From Actinomycetota bacterium (GTDB lineage Bacteria > Actinomycetota > Geothermincolia > Geothermincolales > RBG-13-55-18), in the NCBI GenBank assembly GCA_014360645.1, contig JACIXD010000001.1, forward strand, positions 1 to 64,000: a stretch of 64,000 nt of DNA, written 5' to 3'. The notes under the pieces were generated by a model. The model did no database searches. It was not told the DNA's origin and was given only the letters and a program-made list of their open reading frames with translations. Every line of letters starts with the position of its first letter. The stretch's first letter is position 1. The translations under genes were made by a program, and so were the position numbers. Shown piece by piece: positions 40,649 to 54,176 of the stretch.

Positions 40649-40696
40649 TTGACGGGGTAAGGCTCGAGTGGTAGTTTAAGACTGACCGGTTGGTCT
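40649..40696 (+). promoter_or_regulatory. TetR-gene promoter with overlapping palindromic operator
   Basis: TTGACG (40649-40654), a 17-base spacer and TAGTTT (40672-40677) form a promoter. Starting two bases later is an 18-base imperfect palindrome, AGACTGACC-GGTTGGTCT (40679-40696), matching in 14 of 18 positions, the shape and place of a TetR-family operator at the +1 site. It implies autorepression, lifted by a ligand. Confidence 0.65.
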
Positions 40697-40712
40697 AAGG
40701 GAGGAAAAGGAG

Positions 40713-41375
40713 ATGGCCAGGACCCTGGGGCTGAGGAAAAACCCCGTCAAGGACGAGAGGGAACAGGCCTTCAAGCAGGCGGCCCTCAGGCTCTTCTCCA
40801 CCAGGGGCTACCACAAGACCACCATGCAGGAGATCGCCCTCGAGGCGGGCTTCGGAAAGGGCACCCTCTACTGGTACTGGAGATCCAAGGAGGAGCTCTA
40901 TTTCGCCCTTGTGCAGGAGTCCCACGACCATTTCGTGGGCCTGGTGAGGCAGGCCGCGGACATGGAGGGGACCGCCATGGAAAAGCTTGCCTGGCTGGGC
41001 AGGGAGACGGCGGAACTCCACTACAGGGAACGCGATTACACCAAGCTCTCCTGGAAGATGAGGGCGGAGGAGCTGGAGACGTTCTCGCCGGAGTACGTGG
41101 AGAGGATGCGCGCGAACAACGCCCAGACCAAGCGGGAGCTGCAGAGGATCATCGAACAGGGCATCGAGGAGGGGGTCCTGCCCCCGGTCGATCCCTATTA
41201 CCTGGCCTGCATGCTGCTGGGACTGGTCGAGGGCATGGAGATCCAGTGGCTGGAGGAACCCGATTCATTCGACCTGCGCGAGGCCATGGAGATGGTGCTC
41301 TCGCTGGGCGCGAGGGCGCAGCCCTTCCTCAAGGAGATGTACGTTGGGGATGAGGCGGTAAGGGACGGGCGCTAA
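40713..41375 (+). CDS. TetR-family transcriptional regulator
   Basis: 220 aa. The DNA-binding domain is residues 15-62: FKQAALRLFSTRGYHKTTMQ and IALEAGFGKGTLYWYWRSKEE are a classic TetR helix-turn-helix. The remaining 150 residues form the helical ligand-binding and dimerisation domain (TetR_C type near YLACMLLGLVEGMEIQW). Its own promoter carries a palindromic operator. The next three genes on the same strand (oxidoreductase, kinase, RuBisCO-like protein) are the likely regulon, although no second operator copy was seen before them. Confidence 0.92.
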   Translation: MARTLGLRKNPVKDEREQAFKQAALRLFSTRGYHKTTMQEIALEAGFGKGTLYWYWRSKEELYFALVQESHDHFVGLVRQAADMEGTAMEKLAWLGRETAELHYRERDYTKLSWKMRAEELETFSPEYVERMRANNAQTKRELQRIIEQGIEEGVLPPVDPYYLACMLLGLVEGMEIQWLEEPDSFDLREAMEMVLSLGARAQPFLKEMYVGDEAVRDGR

Positions 41376-41523
41376 GGGATGAGACGGCAGGGTCACGAGG
41401 CGGCGGCCGTGGCGCGGTCTTCCGGCGTGGGGGAACGCCTCGCGGCGGGAAAGGGGACGAGGCGGGCAAGGAGACCTTTCATCTATCGGGCATTCCGTAT
41501 CGGCGATGGACAGGAGGTAAGAG

Positions 41524-42744
41524 ATGTCAAAGCTGGTGATCATGGGCGGTTGCGGCGCGGTGGGGAGCACCGCGGTGCGCAGCCTGGCGGGCACGGATTA
41601 TTATGACGAATACGTGATCGCGGACCGCGATATCGCGGCCGCGCGCAAGCTCTCCTCGGAGCTGGGGCCCGATAGGGTCAAGGCCTTCGAGCTCGACGCC
41701 GACGATCCGGCGAACCTGCGCGAGGCCATGCAGGGCGCTTCGGTGGTCCTCAACTGCGTGGGGCCCTTCTACAGGTACGGACCCCCCATCCTCGAAGCGG
41801 CCATAGCGGCGGGCGTCGATTACGTGGACATCTGCGACGACATGGACGCCACCGAGGTCATGCTGGACATGGACGGCAAGGCGAAGGAGGCGGGCATCTC
41901 CGCCCTGGTGGGGATGGGCAGCTCGCCGGGCATGGCCAACCTGCTGGTGAAGTTCACGGCCGAGACCCTGCTCGACCAGGTGGACTCCGTGGACATCTAC
42001 CACGCCCACGGCGGCGAGCCGGTGGAGGGCCCGGCGGTGATCAAGCACCGCTTCCACTCCATGGAGATCGACATCCCCATGTTCCTGGACGGGGAGTACA
42101 AGACGGTGCGGCTCTTCGAGGAGAGCGGCAGAGCCCTGGAGGAGGAGACGGATTTTCGCGACGTGGGCACCTATCCCGTCTATGCCTACCCCCATCCCGA
42201 GACCATCACCCTCCCCAAGTACATCAAGGGCGTGAAGAGGGTCACCAACCTGGGCCTGGTGATACCCGTTTCCTACGCCAACCTCATCAAGGACATGGTC
42301 AGGCTGGGCCTCACCTCCGACGAGCCTCTGGAGGTGCAGGGGCAGATGGTCATCCCGCGGGAGTTCGCGGTGGCCTTCGTCATCTCCCGCCGCGACGGCC
42401 TGCTCAAGGAGGCGGGGATCGATACCCCGCGCGGCTGCCTGAAGATCGTGGTCAAGGGGGCCAAGGGCGGCGAGCCCCATACCTATGTCTTCCAGATGTC
42501 CTCCAGCGGCATGGGCATGGGCGAGGGCACCGGGATCCCGGCGGCGCTGGGGGCCATCGTCATGGGGCAGGGCAAGGTGACCCTCAAGGGCGTCTTCCCG
42601 CCCGAGGCCGCGGTCAACCCCCTGGACATGATCCAGCTGGCGGGAGAGGTCATCAAGTCCTCCGGAAAGGGGGACAGTGCCCCCATATACATCGAGCACA
42701 TCGACAAGGACGGCAAGGTGGAGGTCGTCGACCTCAAGCTCTGA
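41524..42744 (+). CDS. saccharopine-dehydrogenase-family NAD(P)-dependent oxidoreductase
   Basis: 406 aa. The N-terminal Rossmann fold begins KLVIMGGCGAVGSTAVRSLA, then VIADRDIAAARKL, ASVVLNCVGPFYRYG and AGVDYVDICDD, the signatures of the saccharopine dehydrogenase/LYS9-type family; MGSSPGMANLLVK opens the second domain. True saccharopine dehydrogenases belong to lysine metabolism; most bacterial relatives of this size have unknown substrates. ATG 41524 follows CAGGAGG. The gene is 150 bases after the TetR gene and 80 bases before the FGGY kinase. Oxidation of a polyol or amino-acid-like intermediate in the kinase/RuBisCO-like pathway is a guess from context. Confidence 0.85.
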   Translation: MSKLVIMGGCGAVGSTAVRSLAGTDYYDEYVIADRDIAAARKLSSELGPDRVKAFELDADDPANLREAMQGASVVLNCVGPFYRYGPPILEAAIAAGVDYVDICDDMDATEVMLDMDGKAKEAGISALVGMGSSPGMANLLVKFTAETLLDQVDSVDIYHAHGGEPVEGPAVIKHRFHSMEIDIPMFLDGEYKTVRLFEESGRALEEETDFRDVGTYPVYAYPHPETITLPKYIKGVKRVTNLGLVIPVSYANLIKDMVRLGLTSDEPLEVQGQMVIPREFAVAFVISRRDGLLKEAGIDTPRGCLKIVVKGAKGGEPHTYVFQMSSSGMGMGEGTGIPAALGAIVMGQGKVTLKGVFPPEAAVNPLDMIQLAGEVIKSSGKGDSAPIYIEHIDKDGKVEVVDLKL

Positions 42745-42825
42745 CCCCGTGTCCGGAACCGTAGATGGAGACGTCCTGGGAAAGATGCGGTGGAGGGAAG
42801 CGCGCGAGATTCGAGGGGGTAGAGG

Positions 42826-44412
42826 ATGGGCGAGAGGTTCATCGTGAGCCATGACGTGGGCACGGGAGGCAGCAAGGCGGTGCTCACCGACCTGGCGGGG
42901 AACATCATAGCCTCCAGCTTCGAGCCGTATGGAGTATCCTACCCGCATCCTCACTGGGCGGAACAGGACCCGCGCGACTGGTGGAAGGCGGTGACCGCGA
43001 GCACCCGGAGGGTGGTCAAGGAGAGCAGGATAAGCCCGAAGCAGGTGATCGGCACCGGGTTCGCCACCCAGATGCTGGGGGTGCTGCCGGTGGACGCCTC
43101 GGGCACACCCCTGCGGCCCGCCATCATCTGGATAGACAGCCGCGCCGACGAGCAGGCGCAGCGCCTGGTGCGGCGCCTGGGCGGGCCGAGGGTGATCATG
43201 GCGGTGGCGGGTGCGGTCCCCTCGGGCAAGGATGTCATCTGCAAGATCCTCTGGCTCAAGGAAAAGGAGCCCCAGGTCTTCCGGGAGACCCATAAGATCC
43301 TGGACGTCAACGGCTACCTGGTGTGCCGGGCCACCGGCAACATGATCATCGACCATACCGGCGCCGGCGTGACCGGGTTCCTCAAGAACAAGACCCGCGA
43401 ATGGGACCCTCTTTTCGCGCGCCTGCTGGGCATCCCCCTGGAGAAGATGCCCGAGGTCAAGAGCTCCATCGAGGTGGTGGGCCTGCTCACGCGGGAGGCG
43501 GCCGAGGAGATGGGCCTGGAGCCCGGCACGCCGGTCATCGGGGGCATGGGCGACGTCCCGGCGGCAGCCACCGGGTCCGGAGCCCTGGAGAACGGGGACG
43601 CCCACGTCTACCTGGGCACCTCGGGGTGGCTGGTGATCACGGTGGCCAGGCCGAAGAACCTGGGCAGGAACGGCATCGTGTCCGTGGTCTCCGCGGACCC
43701 GGAGATGTTCATGATGATAGGGGAGACGGAGACGGCGGGCGCCTGCCTGAAGTGGTTCGCGGAGAACTTCGCCACCGCGGAGGAGAGGGAGAGGGCGCGG
43801 GTCGTGGGCGGCGAGATGGCCATCTTCTCCGTGCTCGACGAGACGGCGTCCCGAGTGGAGCCCGGCGCCTCGCGCCTCCTCTTCACCCCCTGGATGTTCG
43901 GGGAACGTGCCCCCATCACCGATACCACCCTGCGCGCCGCCTTCGTCAACCTCTCTTTGGAGCACCGGCGCGAGCACCTGCTGCGCTCCATATACGAGGG
44001 GGTGGCCTACAACTTCCGCTGGCTGGTGGATGCCGTGGGACGCGCTGGCCTGCCCTGCTCCACCCTGCGCGCCATCGGGGGAGGAGCGCGCTCCGACCTC
44101 TGGATGCAGATCCTCGCCGACGTCACCCGCCGCGAGGTGGAGGCGGTGAGGGACCCCCAGGAGGCGGGGGCGGTGGGTTGCGCGCTGGCCGTGGCTGTGG
44201 CCTTGAAGGAATACGGCGGCTACCGTGAGCTGAAGAAGGTGGTGGGGGTGCGCAAGAGCTTCGCGCCCGACCCCGGATGCTGCGACGAGTACGAGGAGCT
44301 CTACGGTATCTTCCGACGGCTCTATGGCAACCTCACGGGGGTCTGCCGCATGCTCAACGAGGGGGAGGAGGCGTGTGGATCGGGATGTACGGCGCAGCCG
44401 CTGAAGGAGTGA
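42826..44412 (+). CDS. FGGY-family carbohydrate kinase (xylulokinase-like)
   Basis: 528 aa. FGGY motifs: SHDVGTGGSKAVLTDLAG (phosphate loop), IWIDSRADEQAQRLV, VNGYLVCRATGN, GGMGDVPAAATGSGAL, YLGTSGWLVIT, and the C-terminal signature with GVAYNFRWLVDAV and AIGGGARSDLWMQILADV. These fit the xylulokinase/ribulokinase/erythritol kinase branch, not glycerol kinase. It should phosphorylate a sugar, polyol or keto-acid. The next gene is a RuBisCO-like protein whose known relatives act on phosphorylated keto sugars or sugar acids, so the kinase probably makes its substrate. It ends with a Cys-containing tail (CGSGC). Confidence 0.88.
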   Translation: MGERFIVSHDVGTGGSKAVLTDLAGNIIASSFEPYGVSYPHPHWAEQDPRDWWKAVTASTRRVVKESRISPKQVIGTGFATQMLGVLPVDASGTPLRPAIIWIDSRADEQAQRLVRRLGGPRVIMAVAGAVPSGKDVICKILWLKEKEPQVFRETHKILDVNGYLVCRATGNMIIDHTGAGVTGFLKNKTREWDPLFARLLGIPLEKMPEVKSSIEVVGLLTREAAEEMGLEPGTPVIGGMGDVPAAATGSGALENGDAHVYLGTSGWLVITVARPKNLGRNGIVSVVSADPEMFMMIGETETAGACLKWFAENFATAEERERARVVGGEMAIFSVLDETASRVEPGASRLLFTPWMFGERAPITDTTLRAAFVNLSLEHRREHLLRSIYEGVAYNFRWLVDAVGRAGLPCSTLRAIGGGARSDLWMQILADVTRREVEAVRDPQEAGAVGCALAVAVALKEYGGYRELKKVVGVRKSFAPDPGCCDEYEELYGIFRRLYGNLTGVCRMLNEGEEACGSGCTAQPLKE

Positions 44413-44553
44413 ACGGGAGGAGTTGACAGGGCAGGATCAAGGATGTCGGACAGTAGAGAAGACGGCTTCCGGACCCGGCGGTCTCCGCTTACCCGAGGTC
44501 CGGGACGGGAGCGGATCCCTGAAGAGCAAGTGGAGTAAAAGGAGGAGAGGAGA

Positions 44554-45900
44554 ATGCTGCATTACGAGGCGCAGCCGAAGGCATTGCCGGAGGGCGTAGA
44601 GAACGACGACTTCATCATCGCCACCTATTACGCCGCCCTGCCTCGGGACATGATAATGTACTACCTGGCGCCCTTCCTGGCCATCGAGCAATCCACGGGT
44701 ACCTGGACAGCGGTGCCGGGCGAGACGCCGGAGGTCAGGGCTAAGCACGTGGCCAAAGTCATCGCCATCCACGAGGTGCCCTTCTTCGAGTTCGAGGTGC
44801 CCAGGGAGGTGGAGGAGCGGACCTATGTGGTGCAGGTGGCCTTTCCCGTGCGTAACATCGAGCACCAGATCCCCATGCTGCTGACCGCGGTGGTGGGGAA
44901 CATCTCCATGGGGGGGAAGATAAAGCTCATCGACCTCTGGTTCCCCAAGAGCTACACCGACGGCTTCCAGGGGCCCAAGTTCGGCATCGACGGCATCTAC
45001 GAGGCGCTGGGGATGAAGGAGCGCCGGCCGCTGCTGAACAACATGATCAAGCCCTGCACCGGCTATTCCTGCGAGATTGGCGAGAAGCTCTTCTACGAGG
45101 CCGCGCTGGGCGGCTGCGACGTCATCAAGGACGACGAGCTCATCGCGGACATGGCCTTCAACCGCTGCGAGGACCGCGTGAAGGCATACATGGCCATGGA
45201 GAAGCGCGTGTACGAGGAGACGGGCGAACATACCCTTTACACCGTGAACATATCGGACAGCATACCCAAGATGTTCGAGACCGCCAAGCGTGTGGTGGAT
45301 GCCGGGGCCAACGCCATCATGGTCAACTACCTGGCGGTGGGGCTCCCGGCCCTCCAGGCCCTGGCCGAGGACCCGGACATCAACGTGCCCATCCTCGCTC
45401 ACATGGACTGCGCGGGCGCCCTCTACGAGTCGCCCATCTCCGGCATCGCCTCGCACTTGGTGCTGGCCAAGCTCCCCCGCCTGGCGGGTGCGGACGCCAT
45501 CGTCTTCCCCGCCCCCTATGGCAAGGCGCCATACCTCAAGGACCGCTTCGTCTTCACCGCAGATGTCATGCACTACCCGCTGCACGCACTCAAGCCCACC
45601 ATGCCCATGCCCTCGGGGGGCATCACCCCGGACATGGTGCCGGTGTGCGTGGCGGACATCGGCCGGGAGATCATGATCGGCTCCGGCGGCGGCATCCACG
45701 CCCACCCCATGGGGCCGACGGCGGGCGCGAGGGCCTTCCGCCAGGCCATAGATGCCGCCATGTGCGGCATCCCCATCCACGAGTATGCCCAGGACCACCA
45801 GGAGCTGGCGGTGGCGCTGGGGATGTGGGAAGGTGCCTTCAAGGAGACCACCGCCTCGTGTGGGCTGGAAGGCACCATCGAATCCCTTGCCGACCGTTGA
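44554..45900 (+). CDS. RuBisCO-like protein (form IV)
   Basis: 448 aa. The RuBisCO large-subunit fold is clear: AIEQSTGTWTAV (Glu45 = Glu60 of spinach RuBisCO), GFQGPKFGIDGI, NMIKPCTGYS and the metal loop GGCDVIKDDE, where Lys192, Asp194 and Glu195 correspond to Lys201, Asp203 and Glu204. The phosphate sites MPSGGITPD and GSGGGIHAHPMGP are kept, and the loop-6 Lys (YGK, Lys324) is present. But the equivalents of Lys177, Arg295 and His327 read Cys168, Met284 and Val, so carboxylation of ribulose bisphosphate is unlikely. Form IV relatives act as enolases, isomerases or decarboxylases on related keto-phosphates. Confidence 0.92.
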   Translation: MLHYEAQPKALPEGVENDDFIIATYYAALPRDMIMYYLAPFLAIEQSTGTWTAVPGETPEVRAKHVAKVIAIHEVPFFEFEVPREVEERTYVVQVAFPVRNIEHQIPMLLTAVVGNISMGGKIKLIDLWFPKSYTDGFQGPKFGIDGIYEALGMKERRPLLNNMIKPCTGYSCEIGEKLFYEAALGGCDVIKDDELIADMAFNRCEDRVKAYMAMEKRVYEETGEHTLYTVNISDSIPKMFETAKRVVDAGANAIMVNYLAVGLPALQALAEDPDINVPILAHMDCAGALYESPISGIASHLVLAKLPRLAGADAIVFPAPYGKAPYLKDRFVFTADVMHYPLHALKPTMPMPSGGITPDMVPVCVADIGREIMIGSGGGIHAHPMGPTAGARAFRQAIDAAMCGIPIHEYAQDHQELAVALGMWEGAFKETTASCGLEGTIESLADR

Positions 45901-46080: not shown

Positions 46081-46410
46081 TCAAGGGGAGGTCAGTCCTC
46101 TTCCTCCTCCAGGGTCGAGCCTCTCCGGCCGCAGTACCTTGAAGACCAGATAGACCATGACGAGGATAATCGCTAAGTTGATGAGCACCCCTATGAAGTA
46201 TTCATAGTCGAACACTTCGTCGCCGATGTGAAAGGTGAGGGTGTCCAGACTCCCCTGTCCGACCACGGCGCCTATGATAGGGTTTATGAGGTTGGTGACC
46301 AGGGAGCTCACCACCACGCCGGTGTCGCCGCCCACGATGAAGCCGATGGCCAGGCCTACCAAGCCCTGTTTGCGGATGAACTCGATGAAACCCTTAGTTC
46401 TCTCACCCAC
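46081..46410 (-). CDS. mscL: large-conductance mechanosensitive channel
   Basis: 109 aa, slightly shorter than typical MscL (about 120-150). The first transmembrane helix, KQGLVGLAIGFIVGGDTGVV, carries the conserved small-residue gate region; VTNLINPIIGAVVG continues it, and the second helix is FIGVLINLAIILVMVYLVFKV. MscL is an inner-membrane pore that releases solutes on hypo-osmotic shock. The stop lies inside a hairpin shared with the RuBisCO-like operon. A copy of its first coding 36 bases is found again, same orientation, at 60254-60289, marking the other edge of a low-GC island. Confidence 0.88.
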   Translation of the reverse strand: MGERTKGFIEFIRKQGLVGLAIGFIVGGDTGVVVSSLVTNLINPIIGAVVGQGSLDTLTFHIGDEVFDYEYFIGVLINLAIILVMVYLVFKVLRPERLDPGGGRGLTSP

Positions 46411-46446
46411 CAGCTCCGCACGTATGGCTCATAAATTCCAGTGAAT

Positions 46447-46530
46447 GAACCGCCCCCGGTTTCCTGGACATAACTTTGGGCTAAACTTCACCACCGATTA
46501 TAACTCATTCCACCTCACTCTCGTACCCAG
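46447..46530. mobile_element. remnant of an IS3-type element end
   Basis: About 75 bases from 46449 (CCCGGTTTCCTGGACATAAC onward) match the left end of the IS3-type element at 58809-58885, including the last codons of its transposase on the minus strand (Tyr-Glu-Ser-Glu then stop). The rest of the element is missing. The stretch to 46866 has no supported gene; TATAAT at 46777-46782 may be a -10 for the response regulator. Confidence 0.75.
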
Positions 46531-46866
46531 GTCTTTCCTTCATGTTCCATCTCGACATAGTAGAGGATTATGAGGCTATGCTTCACCAGATCCCACTCCA
46601 AATTGCCCTCGGTTCTGTACTTCAGCTCGCATATGGTGGGGCAGCCAGGATAGAGACAAAGATACGCCCTAGGAGGTAGGAATCAAATGATGGTAGATGG
46701 GCCGGGCCTAAAGCCGGGAGCGACCTGGCAGCAGAACTAGATCAGTATTTTGAGGCTTCCTTGAGCTGACTTTAGGTATAATCCCCCAGCTCAGGGCTTT
46801 AATCTGTTTCTAATCTTTTGTCCTTACTATTACTATAGAGTTATCGATACGGAATCGGGAGCGCTC

Positions 46867-47541
46867 ATGAGAATTCTAGTTGTCGAAGATGATGAGAAAA
46901 TAGCGCGTTTTATCAGGAAAGGACTGACCGAGGAGGGTTATGCGGTCGACGTAGCCCGTAACGGGGAGGAAGCCCTGTCCTTTGCAACCTCAGCTCCTTA
47001 TGACCTCATAATCCTCGATCTACTGATCCCCCGGATCGATGGCATCACTGTCTGCCGCAGATTGCGGGAGTCGAACCTCTCCGTCTCAATCCTCATACTG
47101 ACGGCGAAAGATTCGATAGAGGACAGGGTGACCGGCCTCGACGCCGGTGCCGACGATTATCTGGTCAAACCCTTCGCCTTCGCGGAACTTCTGGCACGCA
47201 TCCGGGCTCTAATGCGCCGACCTCAAAGTGCGACTTCAAACATCTTGCAAATATCGGATTTGGTGCTCGACTTAAATAAGCATAGGGCAGAGCGGAGCGG
47301 TGCCCTGATAGAACTGACGTCTACCGAATATGCGCTACTCGAGTACCTGATGCGCAATCCCTGCCAGGTTCTGACCCGCACCCAGATCATGCAACACGTC
47401 TGGGACTACGATTTCTACGGAGGATCCAATATCGTGGATGTATATATCTGCTACCTTAGAAAAAAGATAGATGAAGCACACGACAAGAAATTAATAAAAA
47501 CGATAAGGGGAACAGGTTATACCTTATGCGAAGATTCCTGA
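46867..47541 (+). CDS. OmpR/PhoB-family response regulator
   Basis: 224 aa. The receiver domain has MRILVVEDDEKIARF, the phospho-acceptor Asp in DLIILDLLIPRIDG, Thr in ILTAKD and Lys in DDYLVKPF. The C-terminal winged helix has ELTSTEYALLEYLMRNPCQV and YDFYGGSNIVDVYICYLRKK. It overlaps the sensor kinase gene by 16 bases. Base composition is clearly more AT-rich than the genes to the left. Likely targets are the adjacent PepSY gene and the ion pumps of the island (inference). Confidence 0.95.
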   Translation: MRILVVEDDEKIARFIRKGLTEEGYAVDVARNGEEALSFATSAPYDLIILDLLIPRIDGITVCRRLRESNLSVSILILTAKDSIEDRVTGLDAGADDYLVKPFAFAELLARIRALMRRPQSATSNILQISDLVLDLNKHRAERSGALIELTSTEYALLEYLMRNPCQVLTRTQIMQHVWDYDFYGGSNIVDVYICYLRKKIDEAHDKKLIKTIRGTGYTLCEDS

Positions 47542-48914
47542 TGTTTTCAAGGCATATTAAAGTCCGACTTACCCTCTGGTACGTATTCCTGCTTGCCGTC
47601 GTCCTTATCATATTCAGCGTAGTGTTATATATGAGCTTGAGAGGAAGCCTGATCAACGAAATAGAATCATCGCTTCTCACCATGAGTGAACAAATCGCTT
47701 CAAGTCTGGATTACGAGAACGGCCGCCTTTCTTTCCAAAACGAAGGAGAGCCCGACAACCCCCTGGACAGGCTCGCATCGCAGGGATACGTGATGAGGTT
47801 GACCGACGCTACCGGAGAGACTATCGAGGGCGTCGGTCCATACCGCGATGTGCTCGATAAGGGCATGGAATTCAAGAAAGGTTTTCAGGCCTCGGATGCT
47901 TTGGGGAATAGGTGGCAAGTTTATACCCTTATGATCTCAACCGGTCCGGAGCATTATTATCTCCAGGTAGGACAGTCCTTAGGCAGAGTAGATTCCACGC
48001 TCTCAAAACTTCTTTTCTTTGAATTGATCACCGTTCCCCTAGTGCTTGTTCTCGCGATCGCAATGGGTATTTTTTTGGCAGGGCGAGCTTTGAGGCCGGT
48101 GGAGAAAATCACGCAAATTGCGGGAAGCATAGAAGCGGTCGACCTGAACAGGAGGCTCGATCTCGATCTGCCCGACGACGAATTAGGCAGATTGGCGAAG
48201 ACCTTTGATGACATGCTCGCACGACTCGAGGAAGGCTTCTCTTCCCAAAAGAGGTTTGTCTCGGAAGCCGCGCACGAGTTGAGGACACCGCTCACCGTTA
48301 TGAAAGGAACCACGGAGGTATGCCTCAAGCGGGAGCGGGAGTGCGGCGAGTACGAGGAGACGCTCAAAGAGCTTGAGGGCGAGATAGACCATCTCATCGC
48401 CATTGCGGAGGATCTGCTCACCCTTTCCAGCGCCAATTCCGAAAGACCAACAATGGATGTAAAGGACCTGGATCTTCACGAGATAGTTCGATCTGCCGTT
48501 GAGCTTATCGGTCCACTCGCGGAAAGCAAGGGAATGAACATCCGGTTCAAAGCGAAAGGCTCCATCCCTTTTCGAGGCGACAGGAACAAGCTGATTCGCA
48601 TGTTCCTGAACCTGCTGGACAACGCGGTTAAATATTCTCCTCCCGGCAGCGCCGTCTCAGTCTCCATATCTCATGAAGGTCAAACGATAACCGTTGCCAT
48701 AAAAGACAGCGGACACGGAATAGGGCGCGATGAAATAGACAGCATTTTTCAATCCTTCCACCGCCTTGATCAGGCACGCGAAGCGAATCCCTCCGGCGCA
48801 GGACTCGGGCTTTCCATAGCGCTCTGGCTAGCCAGAGCTCACAATGGGGACATTCGGGTGGAAAGCGATTTAGGCAAGGGGTCTACGTTCAAAGTGATCT
48901 TGCCCCATAGTTAG
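47526..48914 (+). CDS. membrane sensor histidine kinase
   Basis: 462 aa. Two membrane helices (about residues 12-35 and 155-180) bracket an extracellular sensor of about 120 residues. HAMP follows (AGRALRPVEKITQIAGSIEA). HisKA has the H box SEAAHELRTPLTVMKG; the HATPase has N box MFLNLLDNAVKYSPPG, G1 KDSGHGIG and G2 GAGLGLSIALWLARAHNG. It resembles BaeS/CusS-type envelope or metal-stress sensors. ATG 47526 overlaps the regulator; an in-frame ATG at 47541 is also possible. Confidence 0.94.
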   Translation: MRRFLMFSRHIKVRLTLWYVFLLAVVLIIFSVVLYMSLRGSLINEIESSLLTMSEQIASSLDYENGRLSFQNEGEPDNPLDRLASQGYVMRLTDATGETIEGVGPYRDVLDKGMEFKKGFQASDALGNRWQVYTLMISTGPEHYYLQVGQSLGRVDSTLSKLLFFELITVPLVLVLAIAMGIFLAGRALRPVEKITQIAGSIEAVDLNRRLDLDLPDDELGRLAKTFDDMLARLEEGFSSQKRFVSEAAHELRTPLTVMKGTTEVCLKRERECGEYEETLKELEGEIDHLIAIAEDLLTLSSANSERPTMDVKDLDLHEIVRSAVELIGPLAESKGMNIRFKAKGSIPFRGDRNKLIRMFLNLLDNAVKYSPPGSAVSVSISHEGQTITVAIKDSGHGIGRDEIDSIFQSFHRLDQAREANPSGAGLGLSIALWLARAHNGDIRVESDLGKGSTFKVILPHS

Positions 48915-49112
48915 CAGGCCTTTCTCAGATTAAGATACTCTAATTGTCCGCTCATCCCGGTTTAATCTCTGCGCATTAACCTTGCCATTGAGACGGTAAA
49001 TTTCGGAAGTGTAAAGCATTGGATTGAGTGTGAGCAATATGAACGCTCTCTTCATCACAAGGAGTCAGGGAGATTTTTTTGGAAAATCATGAGGAAAGGA
49101 GGTGTAACTATC

Positions 49113-49580
49113 ATGAAGAAATGGTGGATTGCCCCTGTCTCGGCCGTATTGGCCATCGGCATGGTTGCCGGTATCAGCGTGGCGGCGGCGAGCGGAAGCT
49201 CGAGCCAAGGGACCGCTCAGGTCCAGGAGCAGGATGTTCAGGAGCCCTCCTACCAAACCAGCATCCAGGTTCCTGATCCGGAGCCGAAGGACCTCAACGG
49301 TCTGGCAAAGGTCACGGCGGAGCAGGCGAAAGAAGCCGCTCTCTCGGCAAACCCGGGGTCTACGATAACTAAGGTAGAGCTCGACAACGAGAACGGCAGC
49401 CTGGTCTGGGGCGTCGAGCTTTCGAACGGAGCAGATGTCAAGGTCGACGCCGGTAATGGTCAGGTAGTGCATACCGAGCAGCCCGATCTTGAGGAAGCTG
49501 GAGAGGAGAGGGGCGAGACCGAGACAAGCGAAGTAGAGGCTGGGACTTCTGAAATCCAGGGAAGCCCGGCAGGCAAGTAA
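49113..49580 (+). CDS. exported PepSY-domain protein
   Basis: 155 aa from ATG 49113 (GGAAAGGAGGTG upstream). A signal peptide or membrane anchor spans residues 1-27 (WWIAPVSAVLAIGMVAGISV). A PepSY domain covers about 65-120 (KVTAEQAKEAALSANPGSTI, TKVELDNENGSLVWGVEL, GADVKVDAGNGQVVH), followed by an acidic tail. PepSY proteins act outside the membrane as inhibitors or sensors and commonly pair with two-component systems, as here. A hairpin terminator follows. Confidence 0.85.
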   Translation: MKKWWIAPVSAVLAIGMVAGISVAAASGSSSQGTAQVQEQDVQEPSYQTSIQVPDPEPKDLNGLAKVTAEQAKEAALSANPGSTITKVELDNENGSLVWGVELSNGADVKVDAGNGQVVHTEQPDLEEAGEERGETETSEVEAGTSEIQGSPAGK

Positions 49581-49643
49581 GGGGTGAAACGCCGGTTCAT
49601 CGGCGCATACGAGTAGAATGTAATCGTCACCCCCCGAAGAATC

Positions 49644-49669
49644 GAAGGGCGCCGGAAACGGCGCCCTTC
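49644..49669 (+). terminator. hairpin after the PepSY gene
   Basis: A perfect 10-bp stem, GAAGGGCGCC (49644-49653) with GGCGCCCTTC (49660-49669), has a 6-base loop and is followed by ACATTATG. The 400 bases beyond, to about 50090, hold no supported gene. Confidence 0.7.
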
Positions 49670-50089
49670 ACATTATGTATAGTCGGGTATCTTATTCCGT
49701 GTAAAATTGCAGACGCGCTTCCTGTATTAACCTGGGCTTGAACACATCCACCGCGAATGTGAACAGCGAGTCTAGCTGGTCCAATACGGCCAAAGGCGAT
49801 GTATCTACCTATGTGGAAGATAAGCTAAAGGGACAGGCACATGTGAACTCTACTCAGCCTGGCTTTTTCCCACACCGTATTGTCGTGAGTTGGGTCAAGT
49901 CCCAGAACGTCTGCAGACGCAATCCGGTCCATACCGTATCGGTTATCTCCCTTGCCATCATATGTTAAACACGGTTAAGGGTGGCCTTCTTTATATGTCG
50001 CGATGTCAAGACCGACATTTCACCCCAGGCGAAACCATTGGCGGAGCAGACCCGACCACTCCTGAGCCCTCTCGGGAACTCGGCCCTGT

Positions 50090-51482
50090 TGACGATGTTT
50101 CGCGGCTCAGGCGGAGCCAGCGAGATCGGCGCCCTCGGCCCTCCCTCCTTGCTCCTCTTCCTCTTCATCTCGATATGCCTATCGAGGTGCCTGCGCTCGA
50201 TATCTGTAAAGCGCACCCTCTGCCAGCGCTCGGACGCCCGCCAGAGCACCGAAAAGACCAGCTTCAAACATTCCCTCATCCCCGGAAGCGCGGGATGACC
50301 TTGGCCCGCCTGCGTTCCTCCAAAAAGCTGCGCTAAACGAGATTGGTGGTGCGGATATGCTTGCGGTGCACGGAGGGGAGCTTTAGGTGGGCAAGGGAAG
50401 CCTCCAGGTCCTCTGAGGAGCTCTTCATGGCGGAGGGGTAGGCACGGGAGAACCTCTCGACTGTGGCCTGGGCCATCATCTTCCCGGTCTCGTATGTGGG
50501 GGCGTCACGCACCGCCTCCAGCCGGGGCTTGAGGAGGGGCCGGACGTCGTCCGGCGCCTTGTCCAAGACGTTTCTCATCTTGTGCGCCCAGCGACGTCCC
50601 GCCCGAAGCTGTCGAGCGCTATGGAGGTTGTATCCGGGGCCGGACGTCGTCCGGCGCCTTGTCCAAGACGTTTCTCGTCTTGTGCGTCCAGCAGCTTATC
50701 CTCTCCGCCTTCGGCCACATGGTCTCCGCCGCCTTGGTGAGGCCGGGAGCGCCGTCTCCGGTTACGGTCAGCGGGGGCTTGAGGCCCCGGGAAACCATGT
50801 CCCGGTAGTGGGAGAGCCAATCCTCGCACGGTTCCTTGTTGCCCAGGGTCATGGAGAGGAGGACCTTGGCGCCCGAGGAGAGGATGGCCCAGGAGACCGG
50901 GATCCCCTCCTTTAGGCCCGCCTGGGCCCGGAGCGATTCGTAGACGGCTCAGGAGAACAGATAGACGATATCGAAGCCGGAGAGGTCCCGCCCCTGAGAT
51001 GCCTCGTATTCCTCCCAGAGAACCTCGGTCAGGCGGCTCACACTGGAGCGGGAGAGAAGCGCTTGCCCGTCCTTTATATCTCTGAGAGGGCGTCCTCGAT
51101 GTCCCGGGTGGAGAGCCCTGAGGCGTACATCTCGACCACCGGCCTCTCCAGGACGTCGGTGCGCCGCTTGAGCGCCTCCCAGAGCTCCAGGCGGAAGGGC
51201 TCCTCTGTCCCTAGCCTGGGGCAGGTCTATCTCGAGCCTTCCTCGGCGCAGTCTATGCGCCTCTGCTTGTAGCCGTTGCGCCAGCCGGGCGATTCCCCGC
51301 AAGCGCGCTGGCAGCGCTCCCTGCCCAGCCTTTCCGAAACCTCGGCCTCCAACGCCTCCTGGACGAGCTTTCTCGCCCCCAGCCTTAAAAGCTCGCTCGT
51401 CAGATCCTCCGCCTTGGCATCTCCCGCGAGTTCCCTTGCCTTCTGCCCCAACAGCTCGCTCGGTGGTATTCTCTTCATAGGT
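50090..51482 (-). pseudogene. degenerate IS256 (mutator)-family transposase
   Basis: The protein is recognisable only in pieces and several frames. The N-terminus MKRIPPSELLGQKARELAGD starts at 51482, followed by RDIKDGQALLSRSSVSRLTE, then TGDGAPGLTKAAETMWP and CWTHKTRNVLDKAPDDVRP. The C-terminal part with VERFSRAYPSAM and HRKHIRTTNLV is followed by an in-frame TAG, then RSFLEERRRAKVIPRFRG and, after another shift, RECLKLVFSVLWRASERW. A 57-bp segment is duplicated 100 bases apart inside it. The element is dead. Its right end could not be fixed. Confidence 0.85.
50536..50692. repeat. 57-bp repeat, 100-bp period, inside the dead transposase
   Basis: 50536-50592 and 50636-50692 match at 55 of 57 positions. 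Both encode (minus strand) the HKxRNVLDKAPDDVRP segment, so a 100-bp tandem duplication interrupted the transposase frame. Confidence 0.85.
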
Positions 51483-51728
51483 CTGGACTCCTTTCCATCG
51501 GTTGTACTGCTGAAACCTACGACCGATATGGTAGTCCAGACCGCTATCAATTCGCAGACAGTTTAAGGCGTGGCTCGAGTAGAGCTGGTTTCTTATCCTT
51601 AAATATCAGCATAACGAGTAGTTTTCAAAGGAACAATGCTCTTCCGCGGATGATAATCGCTTGGAAAGGGTAATAATATAGCAGAAGGACCCGTTTGCAG
51701 AGAATGTCGTCGGATATGTTCTCGTGTG

Positions 51729-54176
51729 ATGGATATGCAGGACACCATGGATAGTATAAGTACCGCCGAGGCAAAAGAGCTACCCGTAGCGTCCCTTTTC
51801 GCAAAGCTAGACTCAAGTGAAAGGGGGCTCACCAGCGCCGCAGCAAAGGCGCGGCAGGATGCATACGGGCCCAACGAGATCTCCGAACAAAAGCGAAACC
51901 CGGTGCTCAAGTTCCTTGGATACTTCTGGGGGCCTATCGCCTGGATGGTTGAAGCCGCGCTGGTGCTCAGCGCGGTAATAGGACACTGGGACGACTTTTT
52001 CATAATCCTGGCCATGCTGTTGATCAACGCGGCGGTAGGATTTTACCAGGAACACAAGGCGGACGATGCCATAGATATGTTAAAGCAGCGGCTGGCACTT
52101 AAGGCGAGGGTGTTGCGGGACGGACGGTGGGAAGAATTAACGGCGCGGGAGCTTGTGCCCGGAGACATGGTGAGGGTGCGCCTGGGCGATATCATCCCAG
52201 CCGACTTAAAGCTGATGCAGGGCGATGACCTGCTGCTCGACGAATCGGCCCTCACGGGGGAATCGCTACCAGTGGAGAAACACGTTTTCGATGTGGCGTA
52301 TTCCGGCTCGGTCGTTCGTCAAGGCGAGATGAAGGCGATGGTCATCGCCACGGGCATGCAGACCTATTTCGGCAAGACCGCCCGGCTGGTGGAGGAGGCT
52401 AAAACGCGCAGCCATTTTCAGAGAGCGGTCATCAAGATCGGGGATTTTCTCATCGTCATCGCCGCCGTGCTCATCGGGATCACCTTAATCGTGGCCCTCA
52501 TCAGGCATAATCCTCTTCTAGAGCAACTTCAATTCGCGCTGGTGCTCACCATAGCGGCTATCCCAGTAGCCATGCCGGCGGTTTTAACGGTGACCATGGC
52601 TGTGGGGGCGAGCGCTCTGGCCAAGAAAGAAGCCATCGTCAGCAGGCTTACCGCGATAGAGGAGATGGCCGGCATGGATGTGCTCTGCTCGGACAAGACC
52701 GGCACCATCACCAAGAACGAGATCCGCGTCGCTGAGGTGCAAGCGTTGGAGGGTTTCGAGACCTCGGACGTGCTGACCGCAGGGATGCTGGCATCGCGGG
52801 AAGACGACCGCGACCCCATCGATAACGCTATCATCGCTAAGGTACACGAAACCCCTGAGATTAGGGAGGGGATGTCATCTTATGAAGTCGGCGACTTCAA
52901 ACCCTTCGATCCGGTGATAAAGCGTACCGAGGTGAGCGTGCGGGATGTTGATGAGGGCACGGCATTCAAGGTCGCTAAGGGGGCTCCGCAGGTGATCCTG
53001 GAATTGCTCGGCGAGGAAGGGGGGTCCACAATATCCGGCGAGGTCTCGCGCTACGTTGACGAGTATGCCACCAGGGGGCACCGGGCACTGGGGGTCGCCC
53101 GCACCGACGATGGCGGAACCTGGCGGTACATCGGCCTCATCGCTCTTAATGACCCACCCCGCGATGATTCGGCCGAGACCATCGCCATGGCACAGGAGAT
53201 GGGGATAGAAGTGAAGATGGTAACCGGTGACCACATTGCTATCGCCAGGGAGATAGCCCGTGAGGTAAACCTGCGCCCAGAAATACAGCCCGCCTCCGCT
53301 TTTATCGATGCCCCAGACGAGGAGGCGGGCGACATTGTAGAGGCGGCGGATGGTTTCGCCCAGGTATTTCCGGAGCACAAGTACCGCATCGTCGAGCTGC
53401 TGCAATCCAGGAATCACATCGTCGGCATGACTGGGGACGGGGTCAACGACGCGCCAGCCCTGAAAAAGGCGGACGCGGGCATCGCGGTGGCCGGAGCCAC
53501 CGATGCAGCAAAGTCCGCCGCGGCCATCGTGCTGACCCTGCCCGGTTTGTCGGTGATCATCGATGCCATCAGGGAGAGTCGCAAAATCTTCCAGCGCATG
53601 ACCAGTTATGCCGTCTACCGCATCGCTGAGACCATCCGGGTGCTCTTCTTCATAACCTTAGCCATCCTCATCTTCAACTTCTACCCTCTGACCCCCATCA
53701 TGATTGTACTGCTCGCCCTGCTTAACGATATCCCTATCATGATGATCGCCTACGACAACGCCAAGGTATACCCGCAGCCTGAGCGCTGGAACATGCGTGA
53801 TGTTCTCTCAATCGCCACTTTCATCGGGTTTATAGGGCTTATATTCAGCTTCGGCCTGTATCTCGCAGCGAAACAGTGGTTACATCTGGACGGGGATACC
53901 ATTCAGACCCTCATGTTCCTGAAGTTGGCAGTGGGGGGTCACTTCACCATCTATCTCACCCGCTCCGGCAAGCTGCCGTTCTGGGCAAAGCCCTATCCCT
54001 CATGGCGGCTCATCCTGGCCGCTGAGTCAACTCAAGTAGTCGCCACTTTCTTTGCGGTTTACGGCATCCTGATGTATCCTGTCGGCTGGAGCAAAGCGTT
54101 GCTGGTCTGGGCTTACGTCATTGTGGCGTTTTTCATCACCAATTTCGTCAAGGAACGGTTCTACCGTTGGCTTTAG
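51729..54176 (+). CDS. P-type ATPase of the plasma-membrane H+-ATPase (P3A) class
   Basis: 815 aa. P-type motifs: LTGESLPVEK (actuator), CSDKTGTITKN (phosphorylated Asp), KGAPQVI (nucleotide domain) and MTGDGVNDAPALKKADAGIAV. The N-terminal GLTSAAAKARQDAYGPNEI, PIPVAMPAV-like helix 4 (AAIPVAMPAVLTVTMAVG) and the DIPIMMIAYDN segment of the C-terminal membrane part are typical of P3A proton pumps rather than Ca2+ or Mg2+ pumps. Such bacterial pumps export protons, often in acid-stress settings. Starts: ATG 51729, or GTG 51726; no strong Shine-Dalgarno. Convergent with the APC transporter. Confidence 0.92.
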   Translation: MDMQDTMDSISTAEAKELPVASLFAKLDSSERGLTSAAAKARQDAYGPNEISEQKRNPVLKFLGYFWGPIAWMVEAALVLSAVIGHWDDFFIILAMLLINAAVGFYQEHKADDAIDMLKQRLALKARVLRDGRWEELTARELVPGDMVRVRLGDIIPADLKLMQGDDLLLDESALTGESLPVEKHVFDVAYSGSVVRQGEMKAMVIATGMQTYFGKTARLVEEAKTRSHFQRAVIKIGDFLIVIAAVLIGITLIVALIRHNPLLEQLQFALVLTIAAIPVAMPAVLTVTMAVGASALAKKEAIVSRLTAIEEMAGMDVLCSDKTGTITKNEIRVAEVQALEGFETSDVLTAGMLASREDDRDPIDNAIIAKVHETPEIREGMSSYEVGDFKPFDPVIKRTEVSVRDVDEGTAFKVAKGAPQVILELLGEEGGSTISGEVSRYVDEYATRGHRALGVARTDDGGTWRYIGLIALNDPPRDDSAETIAMAQEMGIEVKMVTGDHIAIAREIAREVNLRPEIQPASAFIDAPDEEAGDIVEAADGFAQVFPEHKYRIVELLQSRNHIVGMTGDGVNDAPALKKADAGIAVAGATDAAKSAAAIVLTLPGLSVIIDAIRESRKIFQRMTSYAVYRIAETIRVLFFITLAILIFNFYPLTPIMIVLLALLNDIPIMMIAYDNAKVYPQPERWNMRDVLSIATFIGFIGLIFSFGLYLAAKQWLHLDGDTIQTLMFLKLAVGGHFTIYLTRSGKLPFWAKPYPSWRLILAAESTQVVATFFAVYGILMYPVGWSKALLVWAYVIVAFFITNFVKERFYRWL

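Follow-up and report, generated by a model that had tools for sequence, protein, structure and literature searches.

A predicted TetR-controlled dehydrogenase, FGGY kinase and RuBisCO-like protein cluster of a deep-branching actinobacterium as a candidate for a new pathway

Which reaction is catalyzed by a RuBisCO-like protein (RLP) that is encoded behind an FGGY-family carbohydrate kinase and a saccharopine/carboxyspermidine-dehydrogenase-fold oxidoreductase (SDH)? This question is raised by positions 40649 to 45900 of the window, i.e., the whole stretch of 64,000 nucleotides analyzed here (G000:C1, from a genome of 3.38 Mb). The genome derives from a deep-branching, uncultured actinobacterium, the nearest named relatives of which are metagenome-assembled Actinomycetota of the Candidatus Solincola/Geothermincola group. 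To our knowledge, few RLPs have a known reaction. On balance, we lean toward the view that the four genes tetR, SDH, FGGY and RLP form one TetR-repressed operon for a hitherto unassigned pathway with SDH/aminotransferase, FGGY kinase, RLP enolization and aldolase steps. This view is carried by the gene set, its conserved association, a common operator, the residue pattern of the RLP and the separation of the latter from the methionine salvage enolase MtnW and from the 3-oxo-isoapionate-4-phosphate decarboxylase OiaX. The features of the locus are as follows:

40649..40654, + strand: predicted promoter -35 box TTGACG, of which TTGAC is kept in most of 13 aligned loci
40672..40677, + strand: -10 box TAGTTT, separated from the -35 box by 17 bases and touching the operator, with TATACT, TATATT or TAGAAT at the same place in relatives
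40677..40698, + strand: 22-bp palindromic predicted TetR-type operator TAAGACTGACCGGTTGGTCTAA, conserved 5' of tetR
40713..41375, + strand: tetR, TetR/AcrR-family regulator P0004, 220 aa (Pfam TetR_N 1.5e-19), operator about 14 bp upstream
41524..42744, + strand: SDH, oxidoreductase P0003, 406 aa (Pfam PF03435 Sacchrp_dh_NADP 2.1e-19)
42826..44412, + strand: FGGY-family carbohydrate kinase P0002, 528 aa (Pfam FGGY_N 1.9e-56, FGGY_C 1.6e-34)
44554..45900, + strand: RLP P0001 of a separate form IV clade, 448 aa (RuBisCO_large 7.2e-46, PF00016 157 bits, PF02788 43 bits)

A preliminary description of this DNA had claimed one TetR-controlled cluster, and the presence of four genes on the + strand behind a conserved palindrome supports such a unit. 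The genes are separated by gaps of 148, 81 and 141 bp, each is preceded by a purine-rich stretch resembling a ribosome binding site, and their third-position GC is 0.90-0.92. The first base of the described stretch is also the first base of the -35 box, while the operator was absent from that description. Nearly all of the tetR-bearing loci examined in families f1-f3 have the palindrome before tetR, and in the genome of the window it is the sole site at up to 3 mismatches; shuffles of the window gave no match, and a control pattern gave 0 matches in ten genomes. Autoregulation of tetR is predicted. Moreover, SDH and RLP are unlinked in G015, and a second operator site with 3 mismatches is found there 57 bp before an SDH-SDH-FGGY cluster; L024 (0 mismatches) and L025 (3 mismatches) have their second site 90 bp before the gene of a class II aldolase. 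Because the operator recurs before these unlinked genes, tetR, SDH, FGGY and RLP very likely make up one regulon, which in some relatives includes the class II aldolase. No convincing palindrome common to the SDH and RLP promoters was found in families f4-f5. The operon is taken to end at the RLP gene because lower-GC DNA starts there, opening with an mscL-like open reading frame (ORF) on the opposite strand and a two-component system; a pattern scan found no rho-independent terminator 3' of RLP.

The RLP is the only PF00016 protein detected in the genome, and its RuBisCO_large domains together with the replacement of K177, R295, H298 and H327 (spinach RuBisCO numbering) qualify it by sequence as a form IV member of the RuBisCO superfamily. 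Its NCBIfam scores stay under every equivalog cut-off, the best NCBIfam and PDB matches being MtnW (357 vs. 409 and 311 vs. 514 bits). The OiaX model gave 187 bits against a cut-off of 700 and the form III model 265 against 497. In the superfamily tree, a placement which the preliminary description had proposed, the RLP falls into a 14-row clade (support 100/99) comprising all tested Geothermincolia, G040 from another actinobacterial lineage and one Syntrophaceae genome. Its sister is a three-row clade from family f11, MtnW and OiaX form separate clades, and with Thermodesulfobacteriota added the clade comprises 23 rows (SH-aLRT 100) spanning two phyla. The earlier view that the protein is neither RuBisCO nor any known form IV enzyme that could be tested is thereby borne out by model scores, residues and tree. 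Carboxylating RuBisCO of forms I-III was rejected on the replaced residues, the position outside the form I/II rows and the form III score, and methionine salvage as well as CO2 fixation are unlikely roles. The AlphaFold model of the RLP (pLDDT 88.7) has MtnW structures as nearest Foldseek matches (TM 0.83-0.85), a modeled likeness that agrees with the tree and carries no functional information.

The active site was assigned from a 49-row alignment. In line with the preliminary description, K192, D194, E195, K324 and S354 retain the metal and phosphate sites, and C168, M284 and V317 stand in place of RuBisCO K177, R295 and H327; the loss of H298 (A287) is an addition to the earlier list. In spinach numbering, E60, T65, W66, N123, K175, K201, D203, E204, H294, K334, S379, G380, G381, G403 and G404 are kept. 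RuBisCO T65, W66, K334, G381, G403 and G404 serve the C1-phosphate side, while R295 and H327 hold the C5 phosphate. In all core clade members the metal/carbamate and C1-phosphate residues are kept and R295, H298 and H327 are lost, and since only the C1-phosphate side is retained, the sequence is suggestive of a substrate carrying a single phosphate. Among the tabulated rows, the members have E T W N K C K D E H M A/G V K S G G G G in common, with the exceptions of L034, where four columns read F, Q, A and G, and L162, which has N in place of C168, and rows of f4-f7 vary slightly in the alignment at the H327 column and in H298, which is replaced by G or S. MtnW, in which Lys98 (Geobacillus kaustophilus numbering) is catalytic, is the nearest characterized family by sequence (form IV-YkrW; PDB 2oek/2oej/2zvi; about 35-37% identity), and both proteins keep the metal/carbamate site and the C1-phosphate side and have lost the C5-phosphate side. 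The RLP differs in that Asn116, which corresponds to RuBisCO N123, occupies the column of Lys98 in all clade members, in that E60 and K334 are kept, in its clade, and in that it has FGGY, SDH and aminotransferase partners instead of mtn genes. The score deficits, Asn116 and the separate clade led us to reject the MtnW assignment.

Among these partners, the FGGY kinase is the constant one nearly everywhere. It adjoins RLP in the Geothermincolia loci examined and lies within about 5 kb of RLP in all nine core Thermodesulfobacteriota loci (L155-L163). The genome-neighborhood survey called for by the preliminary description thus showed the FGGY-RLP pair to recur in Actinomycetota and Thermodesulfobacteriota, and because of this recurrence the pair looks like part of an unassigned metabolic pathway. 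P0002 possesses FGGY_N and FGGY_C domains, the catalytic Asp in a GD motif and the signatures QML and GKD. Its best PDB match is Escherichia coli XylB (2itm), with which it shares the full-length FGGY fold and the catalytic Asp; QMHG of the XylB substrate site is replaced by QMLG/QMIG, and GFTAPK by (S/T)GKD. Identification as xylulokinase was rejected on the NCBIfam score of 329 bits (cut-off 380) and on QMLG. The RLP-linked kinases of Thermodesulfobacteriota, which are 32-35% identical to P0002, have the GKD motif in common with it, and the motif is absent from XylB-like FGGY paralogues of Geothermincolia; the Syntrophaceae RLP and the sister-clade RLP of L067 neighbor an FGGY kinase from a distant subfamily. 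In the FGGY tree, the kinases of the class that are linked to RLP or to SDH fall together into a single clade of 28 rows, in which P0002 groups with SDH-linked kinases (99/94). FGGY occurs with SDH in the absence of RLP in G301 and G326, and with RLP in the absence of SDH in G397, so that the kinase is probably the middle step, with SDH acting before it and the RLP after it, as the genes are arranged in the window.

The SDH model (AlphaFold pLDDT 92.7) best matches carboxyspermidine dehydrogenase 8deb (TM 0.78-0.80), and the fold of the carboxynorspermidine synthase/saccharopine dehydrogenase family was found together with an NCBIfam score of 50 bits, far under the equivalog cut-off of 800. 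The protein shares fold and NAD(P)-binding domain with carboxyspermidine/saccharopine dehydrogenases (8deb, 8h4z, 4ina) and lysine dehydrogenase (3abi) at about 20% identity, and carries the conserved motifs HGGE, HRxH, YPHPET and GEGTGIP. SDH adjoins FGGY and RLP in family f1; the order is RLP-SDH-FGGY in L048 (actinobacterial family f17) and FGGY-RLP-SDH in the thermodesulfobacterium L161, with an SDH 62% identical. Families f2-f7 have a close SDH orthologue elsewhere in the genome, mostly beside another FGGY paralogue. Among 397 Actinomycetota genomes, a close SDH occurs in 26 of the 30 with this RLP and in 2 of the 367 devoid of it (Fisher 2.6e-34, phylogeny ignored), and the RLP-less genomes of the same class, G018 (99% complete) and G028, also lack SDH, P0002-type FGGY and the aminotransferase. 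The SDH-FGGY modules of L095, L097 and L103 lie near genes for a URO-D-type methyltransferase, a B12-binding corrinoid protein, a DUF1638-like protein and an M24 peptidase, neighbors which suggest a possible methylated substrate; a general tie to corrinoid/URO-D methyltransferase genes was rejected, as it concerns 3 of 12 unlinked SDH loci and could be chance.

Additional enzymes were found beside the relatives of the RLP. A class III aminotransferase resembling glutamate-1-semialdehyde aminomutase is encoded between FGGY and RLP in L155-L160 and divergently, adjoining FGGY-RLP, in L033, L038 and L040, with 68-75% identity across the two phyla. All ten RLP-bearing f3-f6 genomes tested encode it; the tested f1 genomes, G015 and G040 lack it. 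The aminotransferase and the carboxyspermidine/lysine dehydrogenase fold of SDH hint at an amino group in the starting compound. The regulon aldolase of L024 and L025 scores best to 3-oxo-tetronate 4-phosphate decarboxylase (138 bits, cut-off 250), is also near to sugar-phosphate aldolases, again under the cut-offs, and has fuculose-phosphate aldolase 6btd as its nearest PDB match. L067 likewise has a class II aldolase gene right next to FGGY-RLP, and in L158 and L160 such a gene is found close by, that of L160 having been identified by clustering with the L158 aldolase. In the genome of the window, class II aldolase copies were noticed at the ends of contigs C11 and C18 (L134:2602-3240 vs. 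L135:2892-3539), one of which looks truncated and joined to a transposase-like ORF start; the intact copy on the other contig is 97.7% identical to it, indicating an insertion or an assembly variant. No sugar transporter is linked in the RLP clade of the window.

Following this, we propose that SDH, or the class III aminotransferase that replaces or joins it in relatives, would yield a keto compound by oxidation or deamination, which the FGGY kinase would phosphorylate, probably on the carbon that neighbors the keto function, giving a product like a ketose 1-phosphate. The RLP would bind this mono-phosphate at the site equivalent to the C1-phosphate site of RuBisCO, and its carbamylated K192 with Mg2+ may take the proton alpha to the keto group, yielding an isomerized or epimerized product with no CO2 fixation. 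In the last step, the class II aldolase-family enzyme would split this product, probably into dihydroxyacetone phosphate and a small fragment. We infer the step order, carbamylation and metal use, the phosphate position, the type of RLP reaction and the end products. Several observations weigh against this scheme: the aldolase of the genome of the window is itself not under the operator, the kinase, RLP and aldolase all score under equivalog cut-offs so that no pathway enzyme has a substrate-level assignment, several genomes of RLP carriers lack SDH, and much of the co-occurrence within the class is vertical inheritance. Furthermore, SDHs of about 50% identity occur without RLP in Thermodesulfobacteriota, and SDH is therefore an accessory rather than the core of the pathway. 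Likewise, the kept E60 and K334, which are lost in MtnW, would equally fit a reaction on a carboxylate, i.e., a decarboxylation.

Because of these two residues, the main alternative is that a phosphorylated oxo-acid is decarboxylated. In a route analogous to D-apionate/tetronate catabolism, a dehydrogenase would give an oxo-acid, FGGY would take the place of the DUF1537 kinase, and decarboxylation of the phosphorylated oxo-acid would fall to the RLP or to the class II "aldolase"; we regard this as possible yet doubtful. OiaX and the DUF1537-paired RLPs likewise work behind a dedicated kinase, with a similar E60/K334 side that most OiaX-type RLPs keep, and the regulon aldolase points the same way with its best score. 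The invariant Lys-Asp pair of the kinase (in GKD), which has no counterpart in the XylB segment, could bind a carboxylate, and the sister-clade RLP of L068 lies beside genes for a sugar ABC transporter, a short-chain dehydrogenase/reductase (SDR), a metallo-beta-lactamase-fold protein and an enolase-superfamily protein, all of which are frequent in sugar-acid catabolism. By contrast, the RLP has lost R295, which all members of the OiaX clade retain, and H327, which several of them retain; an aminotransferase is unexpected in such a route, and the OiaX assignment itself was rejected on the low model score, the strongly supported position outside the OiaX clade and the FGGY rather than DUF1537 partner. 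Of the candidate sugar-acid pathway in the preliminary description, the form IV-like RLP with kinase and dehydrogenase stands, and the idea stays alive because the regulon aldolase belongs to the fuculose-phosphate aldolase/oxo-tetronate-phosphate decarboxylase superfamily; the sugar-acid substrate itself is no more than possible. An amino-bearing polyol or a keto/deoxy-sugar is at least as likely, given the aminotransferase and amino-acid-type dehydrogenase fold, regulators of the TetR/AraC and not LacI type, and the missing linked transporter.

A function as MtnW enolase or other enzyme of methylthioadenosine/5'-deoxyadenosine salvage appears quite improbable, despite the best matches to MtnW, an MtnA gene elsewhere in the genome and an MtnX-like HAD phosphatase encoded between FGGY and RLP in L162 (10265-10921). 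That phosphatase reaches 126-142 bits, less than half of the MtnX cut-offs of 292-303, and apart from it no methionine-salvage genes were found beside RLP in the two phyla. A link of MtnA to the RLP was rejected, as MtnA is present in all 22 genomes tested, including equally the RLP-less G018, and is not adjacent; in several class members it adjoins a class II aldolase away from RLP. We know of no FGGY kinase in known methionine salvage, and the scores, the exchange of Lys98 and the separate clade speak against this role as well. Clustering with MtnW and nearby salvage genes, which the preliminary description had named as evidence against a new pathway, was seen neither in the tree nor in the loci of relatives, and its statement that the usual partners of methionine salvage and apionate catabolism are missing holds in the cluster and beside most orthologues but not for the genome, given MtnA. 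Operation in the biosynthetic direction is unlikely, too: RLP and FGGY would shape a phosphorylated keto-polyol that SDH, by reductive amination, or the aminotransferase would convert to an amino-polyol, which might for instance be built into a lipid or cofactor. Carboxyspermidine dehydrogenase, the fold of which SDH has, works reductively, the aminotransferase is found in both phyla and the core clade has no linked transporter; an inducible function, as suggested by the TetR repressor and operator, a typically catabolic class II aldolase in the regulon and the patchy distribution within the class, which speaks against an essential product, argue otherwise. Chance or purely vertical co-location of unrelated genes can hardly be credited at all: gene order over about 10 kb is generally kept in family f1, but the pair persists in both phyla despite rearranged gene order and the use of different FGGY paralogues, and the operator marks unlinked members.

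Besides the operon itself, the Fe-alcohol dehydrogenase and PAS kinase genes 3-6 kb upstream were considered as pathway members, as their order is kept in family f1, and were left out because the operator is missing there. On the other side, the window at 46081-54176 (mscL-like ORF, heavy-metal-type two-component system, proton P-type ATPase) has a GC of 0.50-0.57 as compared to 0.63-0.70 in the preceding genes, and this DNA was possibly acquired. Among Thermodesulfobacteriota, a protein of about 358 aa is encoded directly 3' of RLP in L156 (7911-8987), L157, L159, L160 and L163, the L156 copy having no Pfam match, and FGGY-RLP-SDH of L161 (5693-15447) has sulfatase-type genes and the gene of a family 5 solute-binding protein on its flanks, a hint at a sulfated substrate in that organism. 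In G008:C106 (3364-3626, near L014), about 44 C-terminal RLP residues are matched twice more in tandem after the gene.

RLPs in deep-branching Wood-Ljungdahl actinobacteria were reported earlier with no assigned function, the RLP of Candidatus Hakubanella lying beside an epimerase-domain gene and a DeoR regulator (PMC7325909). This neighborhood resembles that of the f11 clade (xylose-isomerase-like barrel, DeoR), another RLP clade with nine members (L070-L074 among the loci) in which E60 and K334 are lost and which probably performs another reaction; several of its loci carry a UPF0261/PEP-hydrolase-like pair, a DeoR regulator, a xylose-isomerase-like barrel and an MFS transporter. An RLP of a further clade (L081:1295-11554) is encoded beside two URO-D proteins, a corrinoid protein, a xylose-isomerase-like barrel and an FGGY kinase. 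An open-access search found no literature on an RLP with FGGY or xylulokinase, which is weak evidence.

Taken all together, the members of an RLP clade with near-fixed active-site residues are associated in both phyla with a specific kinase subfamily, an aminotransferase/dehydrogenase and a class II aldolase, and this association narrows the substrate search to a small set of testable candidates. In our estimate it is evenly poised whether the clade performs a reaction new to the superfamily, i.e., an enolization by which a keto-phosphate supplied by FGGY, and perhaps stemming from an amino-bearing polyol, is isomerized, epimerized or decarboxylated, in a pathway common to deep-branching Actinomycetota and Thermodesulfobacteriota. 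Those RLPs whose functions have been assigned brought to light new pathways and new enolase-type chemistry that is relevant to how CO2 fixation arose. If true, the RLP clade described here would define a new pathway common to both phyla.

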